Source: a virus | Strand: one strand, 5' to 3' | Length of the DNA: 64,000 nt | IMG/VR virus record: IMGVR_UViG_3300027730_000007 | Span: 1-64,000 of that record | Part shown: one piece after another, positions 1 through 9,037 of the stretch | Layout of the letters: the number at the start of each line of letters is the position of its first letter | Position numbering within the stretch: the stretch's first letter is position 1 | The notes under the pieces: generated by a model | Told to the model about the DNA's origin: nothing | The model's input: only the letters and a program-made list of their open reading frames with translations | Databases searched by the model: none | Program-made: the position numbers and the translations under genes

Positions 1-1098
1 TACTTGAAATTTACCTGATTCTTTATTAAAATGTACCGATGATTCAGCTGCCTTACCAAGTTCTTTAGTTAATCCTTCCATATCATTACGAGCCAAATAC
101 ATTAAACGAAACGGGTCAGCCATTTGCGCCCAAGCACCACCCATAACTTGCAATTGAGCTGACATATCAACGGCACCTTCAATATCAAATAACTTGTCAG
201 CCATACCAGTAATTGAATTCATTTCAATACCCAATTTAGTAGTCGTTTCAGCCATCTTAATCAGGCCCTTAACACCACCCTTAAAGCTATACTTATTTAA
301 TAGCTTAAAGTTTTGTTGCATGTTCTTAATAATCTCAGATGCATTTAAACCTAATTTAGAACTGGTATTGACTGATTCTTCAATCAAGTCTCTAGTCCTT
401 TCAGCTGATATACCCTGCATTTCAAAATCAGCTGCCATCTTTGCAGCACCTTCAGCACCTAAGCCAGTACCCTTAGCCATCTCACTAATAGCTTCAAGAC
501 CCTTACGGCCCAATAGTACTGAACGCCCTAATTCATCACTATAATCAGATTGGTACTTAGCTAATTCTTCGATACCATCACCAATCTCTAAGGTACTATT
601 TGCAGCCTCTGTTATATCAAAACGTAACATCTTAGATTGATTGGTCATCAATCCCATGTTAAGACTAGATTGCTTGATGGCTTTATCCATCTTAAACAAT
701 CCATATGAAGATATTTTATCTAGAGTTTTATTAACGGTATTTGGTATATCAAGTATACCCTTAGCAACCATACCAAGACCCTTAGCGGATATTAATAAAC
801 CTTTATTGGTCTCTTTACTTGCTTCTTGATACCTCTTTATGTTAGCCTTAATTGATTCACCCTCTTTCTTTAGTAATTTAATTTTTGCTTCAATTAAATC
901 TATTTCATCTTGAGTTGCTCCAATTTTGTCTTTTTCAAGTTGAAGGATTATTTCATCTTGACGAACCAATTCTTTTTGTAATGCGGTCATGGTTTTTAAA
1001 CCAGATAAATAACCCTCTAAGCTATTACCCATTTCAGCCCTAATCCTAGCACTTTCCTTTAATAAATTAATTTGTTTTTGTAATTCATCATTATCCAT
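1..1098 (-). CDS. tail tape-measure-like protein, C-terminus beyond the window
   Basis: The first 366 residues of an open frame read leftward from ATG at 1098 and leave the window at base 1 without a stop. Residues about 5-100 are charged and heptad-like (repeated K/E/L/I with few prolines), suggesting a long coiled coil; the rest is helical with Ala/Gly/Met-rich stretches, as in tape-measure proteins. Its position downstream of a gp26/gp51-like chaperone pair and close to tube and sheath genes matches where phages keep the tape-measure gene (T4 gene 29 follows 26-51). A tape measure sets tail length inside the tube. The family is inferred from context and composition, not from a diagnostic motif; a large baseplate or fibre protein is the alternative. 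Confidence 0.5.
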   Translation of the reverse strand, partial: MDNDELQKQINLLKESARIRAEMGNSLEGYLSGLKTMTALQKELVRQDEIILQLEKDKIGATQDEIDLIEAKIKLLKKEGESIKANIKRYQEASKETNKGLLISAKGLGMVAKGILDIPNTVNKTLDKISSYGLFKMDKAIKQSSLNMGLMTNQSKMLRFDITEAANSTLEIGDGIEELAKYQSDYSDELGRSVLLGRKGLEAISEMAKGTGLGAEGAAKMAADFEMQGISAERTRDLIEESVNTSSKLGLNASEIIKNMQQNFKLLNKYSFKGGVKGLIKMAETTTKLGIEMNSITGMADKLFDIEGAVDMSAQLQVMGGAWAQMADPFRLMYLARNDMEGLTKELGKAAESSVHFNKESGKFQV

Positions 1099-2286: not shown

Positions 2287-2598
2287 TTAACTTAATGGTA
2301 TATCACCGTTTTTAAGTCTTTGCTTCAGTGCGGAACCAGAAACCCTGCTTGTTCTAGAACCCTTACCACTTTTAGTCGATTGTTGTTCTCTCATTTTTTC
2401 TTGATGTTCTTCACGTTCTCTATAATCTTTGGTTAACAACCCTAAAAAGAATCGTCTCTCATATGTTGGCATCATTAATACATCTGAATAAGTAACACCC
2501 TTTAAGTGTTGAAGACAAAGATAAATCTCTTCTAATAATGGTACCTTATAATTAGCGGTTAGGCCAAAAAAAGTTTCGGTTAAGGGGAAGAAATGTTG
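2287..2598 (-). CDS. gp51-like hub chaperone segment, probably made by frameshift
   Basis: This frame is open from 2598 to the stop at 2287-2289, but its first ATG codons (2470-2475) fall in the middle of what looks like one coding segment. Upstream of them the translation is protein-like and includes ETFFGLTANYKVPLLEE, IYLCLQHLKG and VTYSDVLMMPTYERRFFLGL. From memory, the pattern of a hydrophobic helix, then SDV, MP and YER resembles T4-type hub assembly proteins (gp51/gp26 family). No ATG, GTG or TTG lies in frame upstream of 2475, so the segment is most simply reached from the upstream gp26-like frame by a +1 (or -2) shift at 2566-2572, giving a product of about 509 residues. Alternatives are internal initiation at ATG 2475 (62 residues) or a sequencing error in the T7 run. 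Confidence 0.55.
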   Translation of the reverse strand, partial: QHFFPLTETFFGLTANYKVPLLEEIYLCLQHLKGVTYSDVLMMPTYERRFFLGLLTKDYREREEHQEKMREQQSTKSGKGSRTSRVSGSALKQRLKNGDIPLS

Positions 2599-3817
2599 TT
2601 ATGGACCCACCTCTTGGAGTCCCAATAGTAATATCCAAATCAATACCACTTTCAATCTTATCAATATATTGAGTTAATGCCTTAGCATCTTTTATTGTAA
2701 TGTTGCTAGCAAATTCAGTAATTAAGTTTTTATCCCTTATGCCATCAATTTCAACAAAGGTTTTTTGAAGAATATATGTGCTACTATTATTAACTGGTAA
2801 ATTATTAGCCTTATCCTTAGCTAACATAACCTCAATGTCATCAACATCACCACAAGTTAATAGTTTAAACTTGATTTGTCTTTTAGATAATGGTAATACA
2901 AAATGAAATAATCCTTCTTCATCTGGCTCAGCACCCAACTTTTTATACTTTAAATCATTTAAGTTAATTTCAGTATCAAATGGTTGACCATCTTCATCCA
3001 ATAATGTAACTGGATACATCTCACCATACGCTGTGGCCCTTAAATAAATCATAAGAGCATTCCTGTCACCAATGTGTAAATCTCTGTACCTTAAATCTGG
3101 TTCTAACATTTTTCTATTAAATAGAATAGATAAAAATTGTCCACTTTCAATTAAGTTAGGACTGGTAAGAATATTTTCATCAGCAGTAGTCATAAATGAT
3201 ACTCTAATGCTAGGTTTCTTATTTCTATATAACTTACCTTCAGATGGTAACGGTACCGTATCTTGTGCTGTATTATAGTTTGGTTGATTCAATTCAATTA
3301 AATATGAATCAATATTCGGTACTTGTTGTGGTATATTCATAGATTCTTTAGTTGGTTGTTGTGCCGATGGGTTATATTGTGGTTGATATGTTGTAGGTTC
3401 ATATGTTTTAGGTTCGTATGTTTGATTAATTAAACCTTCAGATGCTCTATGGTAATTATCGGTTTGTGTTTGATTATTCGATAATGCTGCATCTCTAAGC
3501 TTCATTTGTTCTTCAGCTTTTGTTCTTATCGCTAAGACTTCTTGGTCATATCTAGATAATACTGGCCTTGGATTTTCAGATAGGTTTGGTTCAACAACCG
3601 TACCATTGGTCTTAAGCATATTTAATTGTGCTTCGGTTCTAAGTCGCATAGCCTCTACAGCATCTATATGTGTGACTGGTGTATCTGTTGGTTGAGCCGC
3701 ATTAGCATATATTTCATTGGTTGCATTAGCCTTTTCAGCCTCAAACTTTGCTATTCTCGCCCTTTCGTCAGCCTCATTTTTTTGAGCTTGGTTTGGTATT
3801 ACATTTGGTTTTTCCAT
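2552..3817 (-). CDS. gp26-like baseplate hub / tape-measure chaperone
   Basis: 421 residues. Residues 1-200 are low complexity: a charged Ala/Glu/Lys helix, then Gln/Pro/Thr/Tyr-rich linkers with short TYEP/TYQP repeats. The conserved part begins near residue 208 with LPSEGKLY and continues through SIRVSFMTTADENILTS, a DRNALMIYLRATAYGEMYPV segment and a FHFVLPLSKRQIKFKLL segment. This is the layout of T4-type baseplate hub proteins of the gp26 group (glycine-rich start, MT..DE.ILTSP, then R.ASYG.Y). Such proteins help assemble the hub on the tape measure. The frame ends NFFWPNR immediately after the slippery run that leads into the gp51-like segment. The extended N-terminus is longer than in T4 (208 residues). 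Confidence 0.6.
   Translation of the reverse strand: MEKPNVIPNQAQKNEADERARIAKFEAEKANATNEIYANAAQPTDTPVTHIDAVEAMRLRTEAQLNMLKTNGTVVEPNLSENPRPVLSRYDQEVLAIRTKAEEQMKLRDAALSNNQTQTDNYHRASEGLINQTYEPKTYEPTTYQPQYNPSAQQPTKESMNIPQQVPNIDSYLIELNQPNYNTAQDTVPLPSEGKLYRNKKPSIRVSFMTTADENILTSPNLIESGQFLSILFNRKMLEPDLRYRDLHIGDRNALMIYLRATAYGEMYPVTLLDEDGQPFDTEINLNDLKYKKLGAEPDEEGLFHFVLPLSKRQIKFKLLTCGDVDDIEVMLAKDKANNLPVNNSSTYILQKTFVEIDGIRDKNLITEFASNITIKDAKALTQYIDKIESGIDLDITIGTPRGGSITTFLPLNRNFFWPNR
2566..2572 (-). other. candidate programmed frameshift site (T7 run)
   Basis: In the gp26-like frame the codons are AAC TTT TTT TGG. The downstream coding frame continues with GGC CTA ACC, so a +1 slip (or -2) on the seven T residues joins the two. 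A second possible slip point in the overlap is CTT CCC CTT near 2584-2591. The window in which a shift must occur is bounded by in-frame stops at 2599-2601 and 2552-2554. Confidence 0.5.
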
Positions 3818-3892: not shown

Positions 3893-3919
3893 AATGACCA
3901 CTAAAATTTAGTGGTCATT
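3893..3919 (-). terminator. rho-independent terminator downstream of homing endonuclease
   Basis: Stem AATGACCACT / AGTGGTCATT with a 7-base loop; the minus strand continues into a run of T. It lies between the homing endonuclease gene and the gp26-like gene. Confidence 0.75.
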
Positions 3920-3922
3920 CTT

Positions 3923-3960
3923 AAAGAATTCTTATAAGTCAATGTTTTGATAGAGTAAAA
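3923..3960. repeat. left copy of 38-bp direct repeat flanking homing endonuclease
   Basis: Identical over 38 bases to 4959-4996. It starts AAAGAATTCTTATAAGTCAA and ends GATAGAGTAAAA. Weaker similarity continues to the right: TTGATAATCA occurs 22 bases past the end of both copies. The two copies bracket the endonuclease gene. Confidence 0.95.
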
Positions 3961-4041
3961 CAATAAAATTATTATAATCTCTTGATAATCAGATAAATAA
4001 AATTAATTAAATATTTTTTATTTTTAAAAACTTTAAAATAC

Positions 4042-4929
4042 TTAAATATTTAATTTTAATTGTTTAATAACCCATTCTGGTCTCTCATTAATATCCTTCT
4101 CCCAAAATCTAATTAACATATAATTATTATTAATACACCATTCTTCTTTTCTTTCATCTTGTTTTAAATTACTTATCTGTGCTGCATATTTTGGTATTTT
4201 AAAGTTAGAATCTGGGTTACAATGCCAATAATCACCGTCAACCTCAATTAATATTTTCTTACCAGAAATTTTAAAATCAAACAATGCTTTTAATTCCCTA
4301 ACGTAGTATTGCGAATAAAAATCAACCTCTTCTATTAAATTTAATTCATTAATAAGAAATTTCTTAAAAGTTTCCTCAAGTTTTGATTTAACTTGAAACC
4401 CATTACTCATAATATACAACATTCTTCTATGAGATTGTTTTTCACGTTCATCTAGATTGGACCACCTAATACTAGCGGTTTCGCTCAATTTAAGTTTATG
4501 TTCATCACTTTTTGGTATACCGCTTAAAGCTTGTGAAATATTATTACCACGCTCTGGGTTACTCATCGTTTTTCTGGTGTTTTCAGCAACCCTAGGGTCC
4601 TCTTTGGTTAAACCATCATTCCATACCTTTAACGTTCCAGCATCGTGCATCTTCTTTTGCGTTTCATGTGATTTTTTTAGAGCTTCTGGATTATGCCCCC
4701 AGTTATTGTTGACTCTAGCAGCATGACCACGAATAAAGTCTCTAAAACCAGCGTCAATACCCAAGTATTTAGGTTTCTCACCACAACCACATTTACAGAT
4801 AGGCTCAACACCCTCCAAAACATATTCAATATAAGTTTTTTCAGCATCAACACCATGTTTCTGTTTATTATGTCTCCTAAGAGAATCCAATGTTTCAAAC
4901 TCTCTTTCACATTTTTTACATTTTACCAT
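4042..4929 (-). CDS. free-standing homing endonuclease, zinc finger plus Vsr-like nuclease
   Basis: 295 residues from ATG 4929. The N-terminus is a C2H2-type zinc finger (Cys4, Cys7, His20, His25), followed by a CKCGCGEKPKYL cysteine cluster. A basic central region with HxxxKKSHETQKKMH and a KSDEHKLKLSETASIRWSNL segment resembles NUMOD-type DNA-binding modules. The C-terminal 100 residues carry LFDFKISGKKILIEVDGDYWH and a later LIRFWEKDI, the fold pattern of very-short-patch-repair-like (EDxHD/Vsr) nucleases used by some phage homing endonucleases. It sits alone between the tail tube and gp26-like genes, flanked by a 38-bp direct repeat, with its own host-type promoter and terminator. It probably mobilises itself rather than serving virion assembly. 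Confidence 0.78.
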   Translation of the reverse strand: MVKCKKCEREFETLDSLRRHNKQKHGVDAEKTYIEYVLEGVEPICKCGCGEKPKYLGIDAGFRDFIRGHAARVNNNWGHNPEALKKSHETQKKMHDAGTLKVWNDGLTKEDPRVAENTRKTMSNPERGNNISQALSGIPKSDEHKLKLSETASIRWSNLDEREKQSHRRMLYIMSNGFQVKSKLEETFKKFLINELNLIEEVDFYSQYYVRELKALFDFKISGKKILIEVDGDYWHCNPDSNFKIPKYAAQISNLKQDERKEEWCINNNYMLIRFWEKDINERPEWVIKQLKLNI

Positions 4930-4936
4930 AAATAAA

Positions 4937-4966
4937 AATTCTTTCAGCAAATATACTGAAAGAATT
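4937..4966 (-). terminator. hairpin between tail tube and homing endonuclease
   Basis: An 11-bp stem AATTCTTTCAG / CTGAAAGAATT with an 8-base loop, followed on the minus strand by T5. It could end tail-tube transcripts. It overlaps the -7 element of the endonuclease promoter, which sits in the loop. Confidence 0.55.
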
Positions 4967-4978
4967 CTTATAAGTCAA
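4948..4978 (-). promoter_or_regulatory. host-type promoter for homing endonuclease
   Basis: On the minus strand TTG (4978-4976), a 20-base spacer, then TATATTTG (4955-4948), an exact match to the Bacteroidetes TTG-N20-TAnnTTTG pattern. The -33 part lies within the right 38-bp repeat; the left repeat keeps the TTG but lacks the -7 element. Confidence 0.65.
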
Positions 4979-4996
4979 TGTTTTGATAGAGTAAAA
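4959..4996. repeat. right copy of 38-bp direct repeat flanking homing endonuclease
   Basis: Perfect copy of 3923-3960. This copy supplies one arm of the hairpin at 4937-4966 and the -33 element of the endonuclease promoter. Confidence 0.95.
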
Positions 4997-5032
4997 TTGA
5001 AAAATAAACGTAACTAGTTGATAATCAACCAA

Positions 5033-5521
5033 CTAAAAAAGAAGTATTGCCCTATCGAATCTAAGCGTTGCTGTAATATCAGCGATGGCATCATCATCCA
5101 TTGATAAATCACCAAAACCAACATTTGTAAGCATAGTACCGTCAAGTAACCATTTCTCCACAACAACACCTGTTGGGTCAAGCATTTCAAGCTCTACAGG
5201 TCTCTTATAACCAGCAGCGTAACCTTGACGACCTGTTATAGATTCAGAGTGCAAACGCACCCATTCCATAATAGCTTGTGTCGCAGATGGGCCAATTGGG
5301 TCACGGAATGTAACATCAATTGCTTCCCAAGTAAAACGACCTATAACCCACGTAGATGTATTAAGGAACGGCATTTCAACTTCATTTTGAGTAATTGAAG
5401 GTCTAGAGGCAGATGCTAACCACCATTGTTGTATACCTAAGTCAGCTGGAAAAGTAATTAACCATCGGTTTTTCCTTTTAGGCTCGTAAGGCAAGGGCAT
5501 TTTCATTAATAAATCAGCCAT
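5033..5521 (-). CDS. gp19: tail tube protein (gp19-like)
   Basis: 162 residues, essentially the length of T4 gp19 (163). It opens MADLLMKMPLPYEPKRKNRW, then FPADLGIQQWWLASASRPS, a typical tube-protein beginning. Further on are WEAIDVTFRDPIGPSATQAI and LEMLDPTGVVVEKWLLDG, the conserved beta-strand and loop signatures of contractile-tail tube subunits, and it ends in a hydrophobic strand DRAILLF. It polymerises into the inner tail tube through which DNA passes. The sheath gene lies upstream with only the 141-residue gene between. A late-type motif at 5575-5587 lies about 54 bases before the ATG. Confidence 0.92.
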   Translation of the reverse strand: MADLLMKMPLPYEPKRKNRWLITFPADLGIQQWWLASASRPSITQNEVEMPFLNTSTWVIGRFTWEAIDVTFRDPIGPSATQAIMEWVRLHSESITGRQGYAAGYKRPVELEMLDPTGVVVEKWLLDGTMLTNVGFGDLSMDDDAIADITATLRFDRAILLF

Positions 5522-5692: not shown

Positions 5693-6118
5693 TTAAGCCT
5701 CAAGATTTAGGTTTTTATCTAAAGCCTCTAAGTTATTAATTGCCTTGGTGCTAATTCTATAACTTGCATTATTTGCTTTAGCTATTTCATTAAACTTATT
5801 AACGATATTCTTTGCATTTTTAGCAAACTTAGTATCTGGATTAACCATACCTTTTTCGGTAAATGATTTAACCAACTCCTTAACTTTAGAATCATCTTCT
5901 AGTGTTTGTTTTATTTGGTTCATAATATTATCATCACTAATAGCATTTTGACCAATAATTTTATTTTGACCGCTTAAATTAATACCCAATAATACAGCAA
6001 CACCTAATACAACATCACCATAACTCTCAGTAATAATGGGTTGATTAGATAAAGCTTCAATTTGTCTATTTAACAAAATCTTTTTATATTGTGATTCTGT
6101 TATTTTAATTTTGGTCAT
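5693..6118 (-). CDS. small protein with candidate prohead-protease leader
   Basis: 141 residues. The N-terminus MTKIKITESQYKKILL resembles the leader of the 374-residue protein, and a short Asn/Gln segment then ends in I-I-T-E followed by S at residues 28-32. After that site comes a hydrophobic stretch (VVLGVAVLLGINL, residues about 35-48), long enough for a buried helix or membrane-interacting segment. The rest is a Lys/Asn/Glu-rich helical domain. It lies between sheath and tube genes with its own late-type promoter. I do not recognise the family. If the leader is cut as proposed, the mature protein would be about 110 residues and could be packaged in the head; that is inference. Confidence 0.55.
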   Translation of the reverse strand: MTKIKITESQYKKILLNRQIEALSNQPIITESYGDVVLGVAVLLGINLSGQNKIIGQNAISDDNIMNQIKQTLEDDSKVKELVKSFTEKGMVNPDTKFAKNAKNIVNKFNEIAKANNASYRISTKAINNLEALDKNLNLEA

Positions 6119-6178: not shown

Positions 6179-9037
6179 TTAGATGTTATCGAATGAAGCA
6201 CCTGTATTTGTAACCACGAATTCTATTTGTATGTATTCTAGACTTCTTGTTGGTTTTAGGAATATTTGACCAGTTAATTGGTTTCTATCGATATCCTCTG
6301 GGTCACTAGATAATGTAACCCTAAAGTCGGTTAAACCTCTTTCAGTCCTTATATTTGATAATATTGGATTAACTAAAGCTAAGAACTGATTTCTAACTAT
6401 TGTGTCATTTTGTTCGAATAGAAGTCTAATAGCCACAGCTGAAATAAGTTTTCTAGCTTGTAATAGAAGTCTTCTAACTTGAATTCTATTTAAAGCTGAT
6501 TCCTTAACTTGTAGTGTTTTATTACCCCAAATCTTAATACCATCAGAATTGAACGTAGCGATTGGGTTAATTCGGTTTTCATAAAGGGTATCTCTCTCAG
6601 CTAAGGTAAGAGATTTTCTAGCTTGTATTGCATCAACATCACCACGTTGAATACCAGCAACAGCGAACCAAGGGAATGCAATGTTATCGGTCAAGGCAAT
6701 GTTTCTAACTACGTCTCTAGTAGGTGGGACGTATATCAATACATTGTTCTCAGCATCGTTGATTTGAACCCATGGCCAGTAAGTACAAGTGTAGTTACTA
6801 TCGTATTGGTCAGCAATAATATCAACAGCCTCATCAGCAGTTAATATAGTACCAGATGCAACGTCAGGAGTTGTAACAACATAAAGCGAATCGGCTCTAT
6901 CGTTTTCAACCATATCGATTGTTGCTTCAACCAAGTTTGTGTTATTAGAGGTATCAATACCTGGAGTTGCAAAAACGTTAATACTAACAGCTTCTGGGTT
7001 TTTAAATGTCCAAATAGCTTCAAGGTAAGCGTAGTAATCTGAATTTATACCTAAATCACCCGAAGTTAATGTTCTATTTGCAAACGCACCACTTGTAAGA
7101 CCAGCTTGACCAGCAGTACCATTGATAATATAGCTGTCTGCGTTGCTTCTAATAGTACGGTACACGTCCCAACCATCAAAACCACCATATGGTGCAAATG
7201 TAAATTTACGTGCATACAAAAATTCATATGGACCACCAACTAAGCCAGCATCAGTTCTAAACTGAGCGTCACCAGTGTCAAATAAGAATATTGGACTATA
7301 AGTACCACCACTTGCGTTAATAACCTCAAATACGTTATCTATTGTAACACCAGTTGCATCAACATCCATGTGGAAACCATTTGTCATACCTGTCCAGATA
7401 TCTGGGCTAGAGGTTAATGGAACACCCTTATAGTCAAAGAAGTCAGAATCGATACCAACAGTTTCAGATAAACCTAAGTAATACTTACGTTTATTTTCAA
7501 ATGTTGAATAGCTAGTCTTATATAATAATGCTGGGTTAACAACACTTGTATTACTGTTGGTTTGGTAGTCACGGATTGGGTAACCAATAAAACCAGCTGG
7601 GAATGCATCACTAGTGTTGCTAGTGTCATCAACTTCAACAAGAACATAGGCTGATTTAGAAACATACTCACCATCAAGTGTACCTATTCTTCTACCAATG
7701 AAGTTAGCTGAAGTTGGGTCCATAGTACAACGTGAAAAACTTTCAAGTATAACTGGTTGTGCATCAGTGTCATAAAAACCTCTAATTCTAATATCAAATT
7801 CTAAGGTATCTGGCTTAATGTTAACTATTGAAATCTTAAATTGTTCGTTAGCTGCATTACCATCAGAAATAGTCCATAATCTAAACAAACGCAATACTTT
7901 ATTACCACGCAATTCTGAAACAACATATGGTGTAACAGCTGGTTGATATTCTTTTAAATAATCAGAATAATCGGTATCATACTGAATAAGACTTTGGTTG
8001 ATACCTCTAATCTTACCATCAACATTTGCTGTGTTAAATAAATTACCATAAAGTTCTTCTACAAATAATGCAGTATTACCATCTTGTGCCGTTCTTCCCA
8101 ATACCTTAGGAAGATAATTACGTTGCGTTCTATCAAGTGATACTTGGTAGTTAAATAAACCCTGTGTGTTTGAGTTACCACTTAGAGCAAATACACCAAC
8201 AGGATTTGTTGTTGCAGCACTAAATGCTGGATTAAATATAACACCAGTTGCAGCACTTAATTCAAAGTTAGGTAATTGTGTAGATACATCTATAGCCCCT
8301 CTTGAACGTAACAATGCTACCAATTGGTCTTCAACATCACTATATCCAGTACCAGTATAGGTAACGGTTACACCAGAAGTAATACCAGTTATATTAACCA
8401 ACGATGTACCACCAGTATAGTTTGTTTGAGTAACGTAGTTGTTAAATGACACACCACTAAAAGTATTACCAAACTTACTAAATATTGGACCAATATTAAC
8501 TGTTGAACCACTAGTCGCTGAACCTAAGTAAGCTAGACTAGAACCTAGTGTTCCATCATTTATTAACGCTTGAACCAAGACATCATTAGAAGTTAATGAT
8601 AAAATACTACCAGTTGGTGACGCTGAATATGATATTAAATAATTAGTACCACCACTATAAGAAATAGTAGATACCGTACCAGATGTAGATGGGTCAAGGG
8701 CCGCATCAATAGTGATACCCCAAGCTTGACCAGCATCATAACCAGAGAAACCTAATACCCTAGTTACAAATAATTGGTTAGATTGTGATAAATAAGACTT
8801 AGCTATGTATGGTAATTCATACTTAGGTGCTCCAGTATCTTTTACCTTGGTTGCGTTTAAGCCACCAAAGAAAGATTGGAATTCGCCATAATTACTTATA
8901 AATATTGGTTGAAATGCTGGTCCAATTGTGGTTTCACCAACTAAGCCAAGTGTTGTTACACCTACTTGACGAGTAATAAATGTTATATCTCTTTCTGATG
9001 TATAAACACCTGGACTAACGAAAACTTTTGTTGCCAT
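6179..9037 (-). CDS. gp18: tail sheath protein (gp18-like)
   Basis: 952 residues. The N-terminus MATKVFVSPGVYTSERDITF and a following VGLVGETTIGPAFQPIFI-type segment (GLVGET at about residue 33) are the hallmark start of contractile sheath proteins. The C-terminal part has WGNKTLQVKESALNRIQVRR, a RLLFEQNDTIVRNQF segment and TDFRVTLSSDPEDIDRNQL, the conserved sheath core that contacts the tube. Sheath contraction drives injection. At 952 residues it is about 300 longer than T4 gp18 (659); the extra lies in Gly/Ser/Thr-rich insertions between about residues 120 and 280 and 480-640, which probably form surface domains. Tube and sheath share a neighbourhood as expected. Confidence 0.94.
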   Translation of the reverse strand: MATKVFVSPGVYTSERDITFITRQVGVTTLGLVGETTIGPAFQPIFISNYGEFQSFFGGLNATKVKDTGAPKYELPYIAKSYLSQSNQLFVTRVLGFSGYDAGQAWGITIDAALDPSTSGTVSTISYSGGTNYLISYSASPTGSILSLTSNDVLVQALINDGTLGSSLAYLGSATSGSTVNIGPIFSKFGNTFSGVSFNNYVTQTNYTGGTSLVNITGITSGVTVTYTGTGYSDVEDQLVALLRSRGAIDVSTQLPNFELSAATGVIFNPAFSAATTNPVGVFALSGNSNTQGLFNYQVSLDRTQRNYLPKVLGRTAQDGNTALFVEELYGNLFNTANVDGKIRGINQSLIQYDTDYSDYLKEYQPAVTPYVVSELRGNKVLRLFRLWTISDGNAANEQFKISIVNIKPDTLEFDIRIRGFYDTDAQPVILESFSRCTMDPTSANFIGRRIGTLDGEYVSKSAYVLVEVDDTSNTSDAFPAGFIGYPIRDYQTNSNTSVVNPALLYKTSYSTFENKRKYYLGLSETVGIDSDFFDYKGVPLTSSPDIWTGMTNGFHMDVDATGVTIDNVFEVINASGGTYSPIFLFDTGDAQFRTDAGLVGGPYEFLYARKFTFAPYGGFDGWDVYRTIRSNADSYIINGTAGQAGLTSGAFANRTLTSGDLGINSDYYAYLEAIWTFKNPEAVSINVFATPGIDTSNNTNLVEATIDMVENDRADSLYVVTTPDVASGTILTADEAVDIIADQYDSNYTCTYWPWVQINDAENNVLIYVPPTRDVVRNIALTDNIAFPWFAVAGIQRGDVDAIQARKSLTLAERDTLYENRINPIATFNSDGIKIWGNKTLQVKESALNRIQVRRLLLQARKLISAVAIRLLFEQNDTIVRNQFLALVNPILSNIRTERGLTDFRVTLSSDPEDIDRNQLTGQIFLKPTRSLEYIQIEFVVTNTGASFDNI

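Follow-up and report, generated by a model that had tools for sequence, protein, structure and literature searches.

A conserved +1 frame change predicted to give short and long tail assembly chaperones in a T4-related phage

In the locus described here, a T4-related phage with a contractile tail very likely encodes a pair of tail assembly chaperones, the short and long forms being produced from one gp26-like gene by +1 frameshifting. The sequence analysed (the window) is a stretch of 64,000 nucleotides, positions 1 to 64,000 of IMG/VR virus record IMGVR_UViG_3300027730_000007. Three findings together point to a chaperone pair: the frame change at the end of the gp26-like gene, the homology of the resulting extension to the C-terminus of T4 gp51, and the position of the gene between the tail tube and tape measure genes. 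Judged from sequence comparison, the frame change is almost certainly real and programmed, and we assign the product, with high confidence, to the tail assembly chaperones. The parts of the locus are as follows.

2552..3817, minus strand: gp26-like gene, short chaperone form (TAC-N), 421 aa (PF12322, E 7e-7; phrog_150 baseplate hub, E 1e-8)
3269..3817, minus strand: N-terminal extension of the gp26-like protein, residues 1-183 (homologue alignment)
2555..3268, minus strand: conserved PF12322 domain, residues 184-421 (homologue alignment; AlphaFold2 mean pLDDT 92)
2593..2595, minus strand: in-frame stop TAA of the second frame, on its upstream side (frame analysis)
2566..2572, minus strand: candidate T7 slippery run (sequence; conserved among loci)
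2559..2572, minus strand: putative shift motif TTTTTTTGGCCTAA, zero frame TTT TTT TGG CCT AA. (TTT-[T/C]TT plus TGG/CGK/TAY in 96/96 loci; CCN in 95/96)
2552..2554, minus strand: zero-frame stop TAA, four codons past the slip pair (3-8 codons in relatives)
2290..2565, minus strand: predicted frameshift-only extension, 92 codons, TAC-C, with the motif MPTYERR (dN/dS 0.09; hhalign to the T4 gp51 C-terminus)
2287-2289, minus strand: stop of the extension (second-frame reading)

The zero frame of the gp26-like gene ends CGA AAC TTT TTT TGG CCT AAC CGC TAA, so the C-terminal NFFWPNR given in a preliminary description of this DNA is indeed that of the minus-strand ORF 2552-3817. In the +1 frame, 101 codons run without a stop from 2592 to 2290. 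The first ATG among them is residue 42, as had also been described, and in the window this frame holds no ATG, GTG or TTG until 30 codons past the T run. The stop at 2593..2595 closes this second frame, and reading from further upstream is therefore impossible. Joined, the two frames would give 417+92 = 509 residues, the length of about 509 that had been predicted. The window has a single copy of the string T7-GGCCTRA, and 0/100 shuffles contain it.

In IMG/VR at least 56 proteins related to the gp26-like one were found, and an alignment-based scan returned at least hundreds more, of which the best 80 were kept. Detailed inspection covered 96 loci (73 under 80% identical), including the phages Mel-JY01, immuto and RM378. 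The +1 relation at TTT-[TTT/CTT], with a long open +1 frame after it, is kept in all 96. The preliminary description had proposed that the frames join by a +1 or -2 shift on the T7 run (2566-2572) and had suggested comparing the overlap and T run across relatives; in the 96 loci examined both the run and the arrangement proved to be conserved. The slip pair is TTT-TTT in 92 loci and TTT-CTT in 4, the codon after it is TGG (82 loci), TAC/TAT (8) or CGT/CGG (6), and CCN comes next in 95/96. The zero-frame stop lies 3-8 codons 3' of the slip pair, and in 8 loci a second-frame stop lies just 3 codons ahead of the post-slip codon. These close flanking stops in both frames leave room for the shift only in the T run or directly next to it. 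A second possible site named earlier, CTT CCC CTT (CTTCCCCTT, 2582..2590, minus strand), was rejected as a slip site, the Pro codon being CCA, CCT or CCG in many relatives (CTTCCA, CTTCCT, CTTCCG).

The first Phe codon of the slip site is TTT in all loci, compared with 79% TTT for Phe elsewhere in the same genes (591 vs 153). In the 73 representatives every Phe codon of the slip site is TTT; by the genes' own codon usage this has P ~1e-20 if they are treated as independent, although the sequences are related. Double coding does not explain this conservation, since under the +1 model the second frame is untranslated before the slip.

Homopolymers are prone to error, and a sequencing or assembly indel in the T run could have created the apparent frame change. 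However, a contig from another sample (L002), whose gp26-like protein is 100% identical, shares this junction, and the frame relation also holds in about 95 loci that are more divergent, including those with interrupted runs and those from isolate genomes. As independent contigs, samples and isolates share the arrangement, a sequencing artefact is refuted for practical purposes. A homopolymer of seven T also invites the idea that RNA polymerase slips on the run, so that mixed mRNAs give the fusion. Runs of T this short are poor polymerase slip sites. Moreover, the run is interrupted (TTTCTTT) in immuto and in three contigs (L077, L078, L142), and the CGT/CGG loci have six T, with the frame relation kept in each case, which makes transcriptional slippage a very improbable source of the fusion.

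Selection on the extension was assessed in 26 loci with identical spacing, over the 24 codons from the zero-frame stop to the MPxxER motif. In the second frame these codons have a dN/dS of 0.09, differences are distributed over the codon positions as 0.31/0.16/0.53, and stops are found in 0/26 loci, compared with 22/26 and 26/26 in the other two frames. Upstream of the site, in the same test, the zero frame is constrained (0.31) and the second frame is not (0.97). The constraint thus passes from the zero frame to the second frame across the site, meaning that the coding frame changes there. In 39/96 loci the first 26 codons of the extension include no ATG, GTG or TTG. As in genes of the G/GT type, the short gene changes frame close to its end, at a conserved place, and the extension that follows lacks a start of its own.

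These results bear on the GenBank annotation, in which there is no frameshift and internal initiation yields the second segment as a small protein of its own. PTYERR is indeed preceded by an ATG in the window and many relatives, LR756511 shows the overlap start TAATG, and in P-SSM5 an ATG follows the stop closely. Against this, strong purifying selection acts in the same frame on the roughly 24 codons ahead of that ATG, immuto and contigs L027, L086, L101 and L113 have another residue in place of the Met, and 39/96 loci lack an early start codon. Internal initiation also leaves the conservation of the T run unexplained, and we consider it highly unlikely.

A frameshift at the site is likely to be +1 rather than -2. 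The open frame is the +1/-2 frame, and a lambda-type -1 heptamer (X XXY YYZ) with an open -1 frame is absent. Re-pairing in the P-site one base downstream is possible in 96/96 loci (TTT to TTT/TTC; CTT to TTT). The distant SP-15 site, TTT TTT CAC, fits +1, and the LIS04 site, TTT TTT AGT, does so at its first Phe codon only. A -2 shift on the T run would give the same fusion with one extra Phe (510 aa). TTT can re-pair two bases back on T7, and -2 frameshifting is known in phage Mu (PMC5009743). However, the LR756508 site, AAC TTT CTA, fits +1 and would need pairing with ACT at -2, and the GXN1 site, TTC TTT CGT, re-pairs well at +1 (TTC) and would need TCT at -2. GXN1 may instead shift at CCC C, which weakens it as an argument against -2. 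Taken together, a -2 shift is improbable.

In the +1 mechanism that we infer, including its efficiency, most ribosomes would read the gp26-like gene to its stop and produce the short form, TAC-N. In a fraction of ribosomes, the peptidyl-tRNA-Phe on the second TTT of TTT TTT TGG would slip one base forward and re-pair with TTT, or with TTC where CGT follows. Reading would then continue as GGC CTA and so on for 92 codons and end in a long form of 509 residues, TAC-NC. If lambda gpG/gpGT is a guide, the tape-measure protein might be coated by many short and few long copies, and the extension might recruit tail tube subunits.

Among the 96 loci no stop or obviously rare codon was found in the A-site, as UGG, CGK and UAY are all sense codons. 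The aligned flank showed no Shine-Dalgarno-like stimulator at a suitable spacing, and a search for a stimulatory RNA structure downstream found none (fold z of the window -0.12). The window contains no phage-encoded tRNAs. A 7-bp pairing across the site in one clade (TTTCTTC/GAAGAAA), proposed by RNAalifold, was rejected; it has no two-sided changes, and coding explains it.

The match of the gp26-like protein to PF12322 scores 29.6 bits, above the gathering score of 24.5, and 62/69 sequences in the homologue alignment match this family (E 0.01). T4 gp26 (E 9e-64) and T4 gp51 (residues 1-201, E 4e-52) belong to the same family, and gp51 has about 48 further residues as a C-terminal tail. This tail is matched in hhalign by an alignment of 44 frameshift extensions (89%, E 2e-6), and adding the -1-frame extensions of other T4-like phages raises the match to 96% (E 1e-8); reversed controls gave 0.2-0.3%. 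The strong result came with family alignments on both sides; a nine-sequence profile run against T4 gp51 by itself matched weakly (E 0.067). Since the extension is homologous to the gp51 C-terminus and both T4 proteins are PF12322, gp26 would be the short form and gp51 the long form. The two segments had earlier been called gp26-like and gp51-like. The first label stands for the PF12322 part; T4 gp26 and gp51 are paralogues within PF12322, and the second segment therefore corresponds only to the C-terminal tail of gp51.

AlphaFold2 modelled the zero-frame domain confidently from the 69-sequence alignment (mean pLDDT 92), compared with a useless single-sequence model (pLDDT 29). The best viral matches of the confident model include the SP-15 baseplate hub protein (E 1e-18). 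A fold search of the PDB with this model gave no significant match, the HK97 chaperone (gp13, 2OB9_B) matching weakly (prob 0.25, TM 0.49 on target, E 2.7), and a sequence search of the PDB with the fused profile gave no match. The N-terminal extension of the gp26-like protein (about 183 residues) is rich in Ala, Gln and Glu; it is present in freshwater relatives and missing from marine ones.

The surrounding genes are those of a contractile tail.

6179..9037, minus strand: tail sheath gene, upstream (phrog_23, E 7e-57)
5033..5521, minus strand: tail tube gene, upstream (phrog_4542, E 3e-25)
1..1098, minus strand: tape-measure-like gene, N-terminal part, cut by the contig end (phrog_794 tail length tape measure, E 2e-8)

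The gene order is sheath, tube, gp26-like gene and tape measure, and the gp26-like gene thus has the position between tail tube and tape measure that is typical of the G/GT type. The downstream tape-measure-like gene, already recognised in the preliminary description, is complete in a related contig (L071:12496-14913), where it encodes 805 aa. In the window contig a 374-aa gene and a probable homing endonuclease gene are interposed in the stretch from tube to tape measure, and in immuto and LIS04 the chaperone gene is directly upstream of the tape measure.

The lambda chaperones gpG and gpGT and their frameshift have been described by Xu, Hendrix and Duda (reviewed in PMC5009743). Lambda and the window share a short and a frameshift-extended form and a gene between tail tube and tape measure, but lambda shifts -1 at its own heptamer and the window gene would shift +1 at UUU UUU UGG. 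No significant sequence or fold match was found between the two short forms. T4, a distant relative, is listed in reviews as the exception to the near-universal frameshift of tail chaperones (PMC5009743), and its gp26 and gp51 are known as baseplate hub assembly chaperones. The window protein and T4 gp26/gp51 are alike in PF12322 and in the gp51-like extension; in T4, however, the short and long forms come from two separate genes on opposite strands, compared with one gene plus a shift in the window.

Tail assembly chaperone genes of T4-like phages were identified by Vladimirov, Gautam and Davidson (Virology 2022, doi 10.1016/j.virol.2021.11.003), as cited in PMC10885494 and PMC12846349; the title of that paper points to a mechanism other than frameshifting. 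According to PMC10885494, which cites it, some T4-like phages have a short gene plus a fused long gene. Poly-T -1 signals have been noted in the short-form chaperone genes of T4-like and Vandenendeviridae phages (PMC12846349), and the present comparison showed candidate -1 sites of this kind in Kyanoviridae, Cronobacter S13, Vibrio VmeM-32 and Rhizobium LG08. These phages and the window share a T-run shift at the end of the gp26-like gene and a short tail with P-x-E or P-x-x-E, but their phase is -1 (GT TTT TTY or AT TTT TTY) and that of the window is +1.

The +1 site of RF2 (prfB) is CUU UGA. It resembles immuto-type sites (TTT CTT TGG) in a CUU-U slip in the P-site, but RF2 has UGA in the A-site and the immuto-type site has the sense codon UGG and no Shine-Dalgarno stimulator at the right spacing.

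In the literature searched we found no description of a +1 shift in the PF12322 family or of the TTT-[T/C]TT-NNN-CCN motif, the 2022 study being represented here by papers that cite it. The suggestion that this could be a new case holds for the +1 variant, which looks new; it does not hold for the identification of T4-like chaperones, which, going by PMC10885494 and PMC12846349, dates from a 2022 publication.

A quick tree built from 57 PF12322 domains, 43 of them from +1 users, separates the +1 users from T4, Kyanoviridae and the remaining -1 or two-gene users, and the split is strongly supported (SH-aLRT 99). The exceptions on the +1 side are XacN1 (-1, long branch) and LR756511 (own ATG). 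The +1 clade would include the window, Flavobacterium immuto, Microcystis Mel-JY01, Bacillus SP-15 and Rhodothermus RM378, which like XacN1 sits on a long branch. The -1 users identified are P-SSM5, Melnitz, S13, VmeM-32, LG08 and XacN1. We somewhat favour the view that a deep clade of uncultured and little-studied T4-related myoviruses uses a previously undescribed kind of +1 site (UUU-UUU/UUU-CUU, a sense codon and CCN, with no stop, Shine-Dalgarno sequence or structure), and that the chaperone family switched among +1 shift, -1 shift and gene duplication during the evolution of T4-type phages. With +1 in one deep clade of PF12322 and -1 or two genes in the other, the origin of the two-gene arrangement of T4 becomes testable. 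The roughly 100 natural site variants form a series for studying +1 shifting at sense codons, and annotations can be corrected where they omit the long form or break it up into small 'hypothetical' ORFs.

In Xanthomonas phage XacN1 (L065, 2941-3780 and after) the gp26-like gene ends GCT TTT TTT ATT, with about 70 open codons following in the -1 frame. The annotated gp26 genes of Cronobacter phage S13, Vibrio phage VmeM-32, Rhizobium phage LG08 and Melnitz end GAT TTT TTY or AGT TTT TTT TAA, and all four have an open -1 extension that is unannotated as a fusion.

Other features were observed in the tail region. The ORF at 4042-4950 (minus strand, 302 aa), between the tail tube and gp26-like genes, has weak matches to a C2H2-like zinc finger and a DUF559 (Vsr-like) domain and is probably a homing endonuclease. 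It is flanked by an 86-nt direct repeat at 3917-4002 and 4953-5038 (79% identical, 1036 nt apart), and a related ORF is present in contig L003. Two tail-region proteins on the minus strand, at 1105-2229 and 5693-6118, for which no family match was found, are otherwise unrelated and begin with a similar motif (MKLIINERQLKLI and MTKIKITESQYKKIL).
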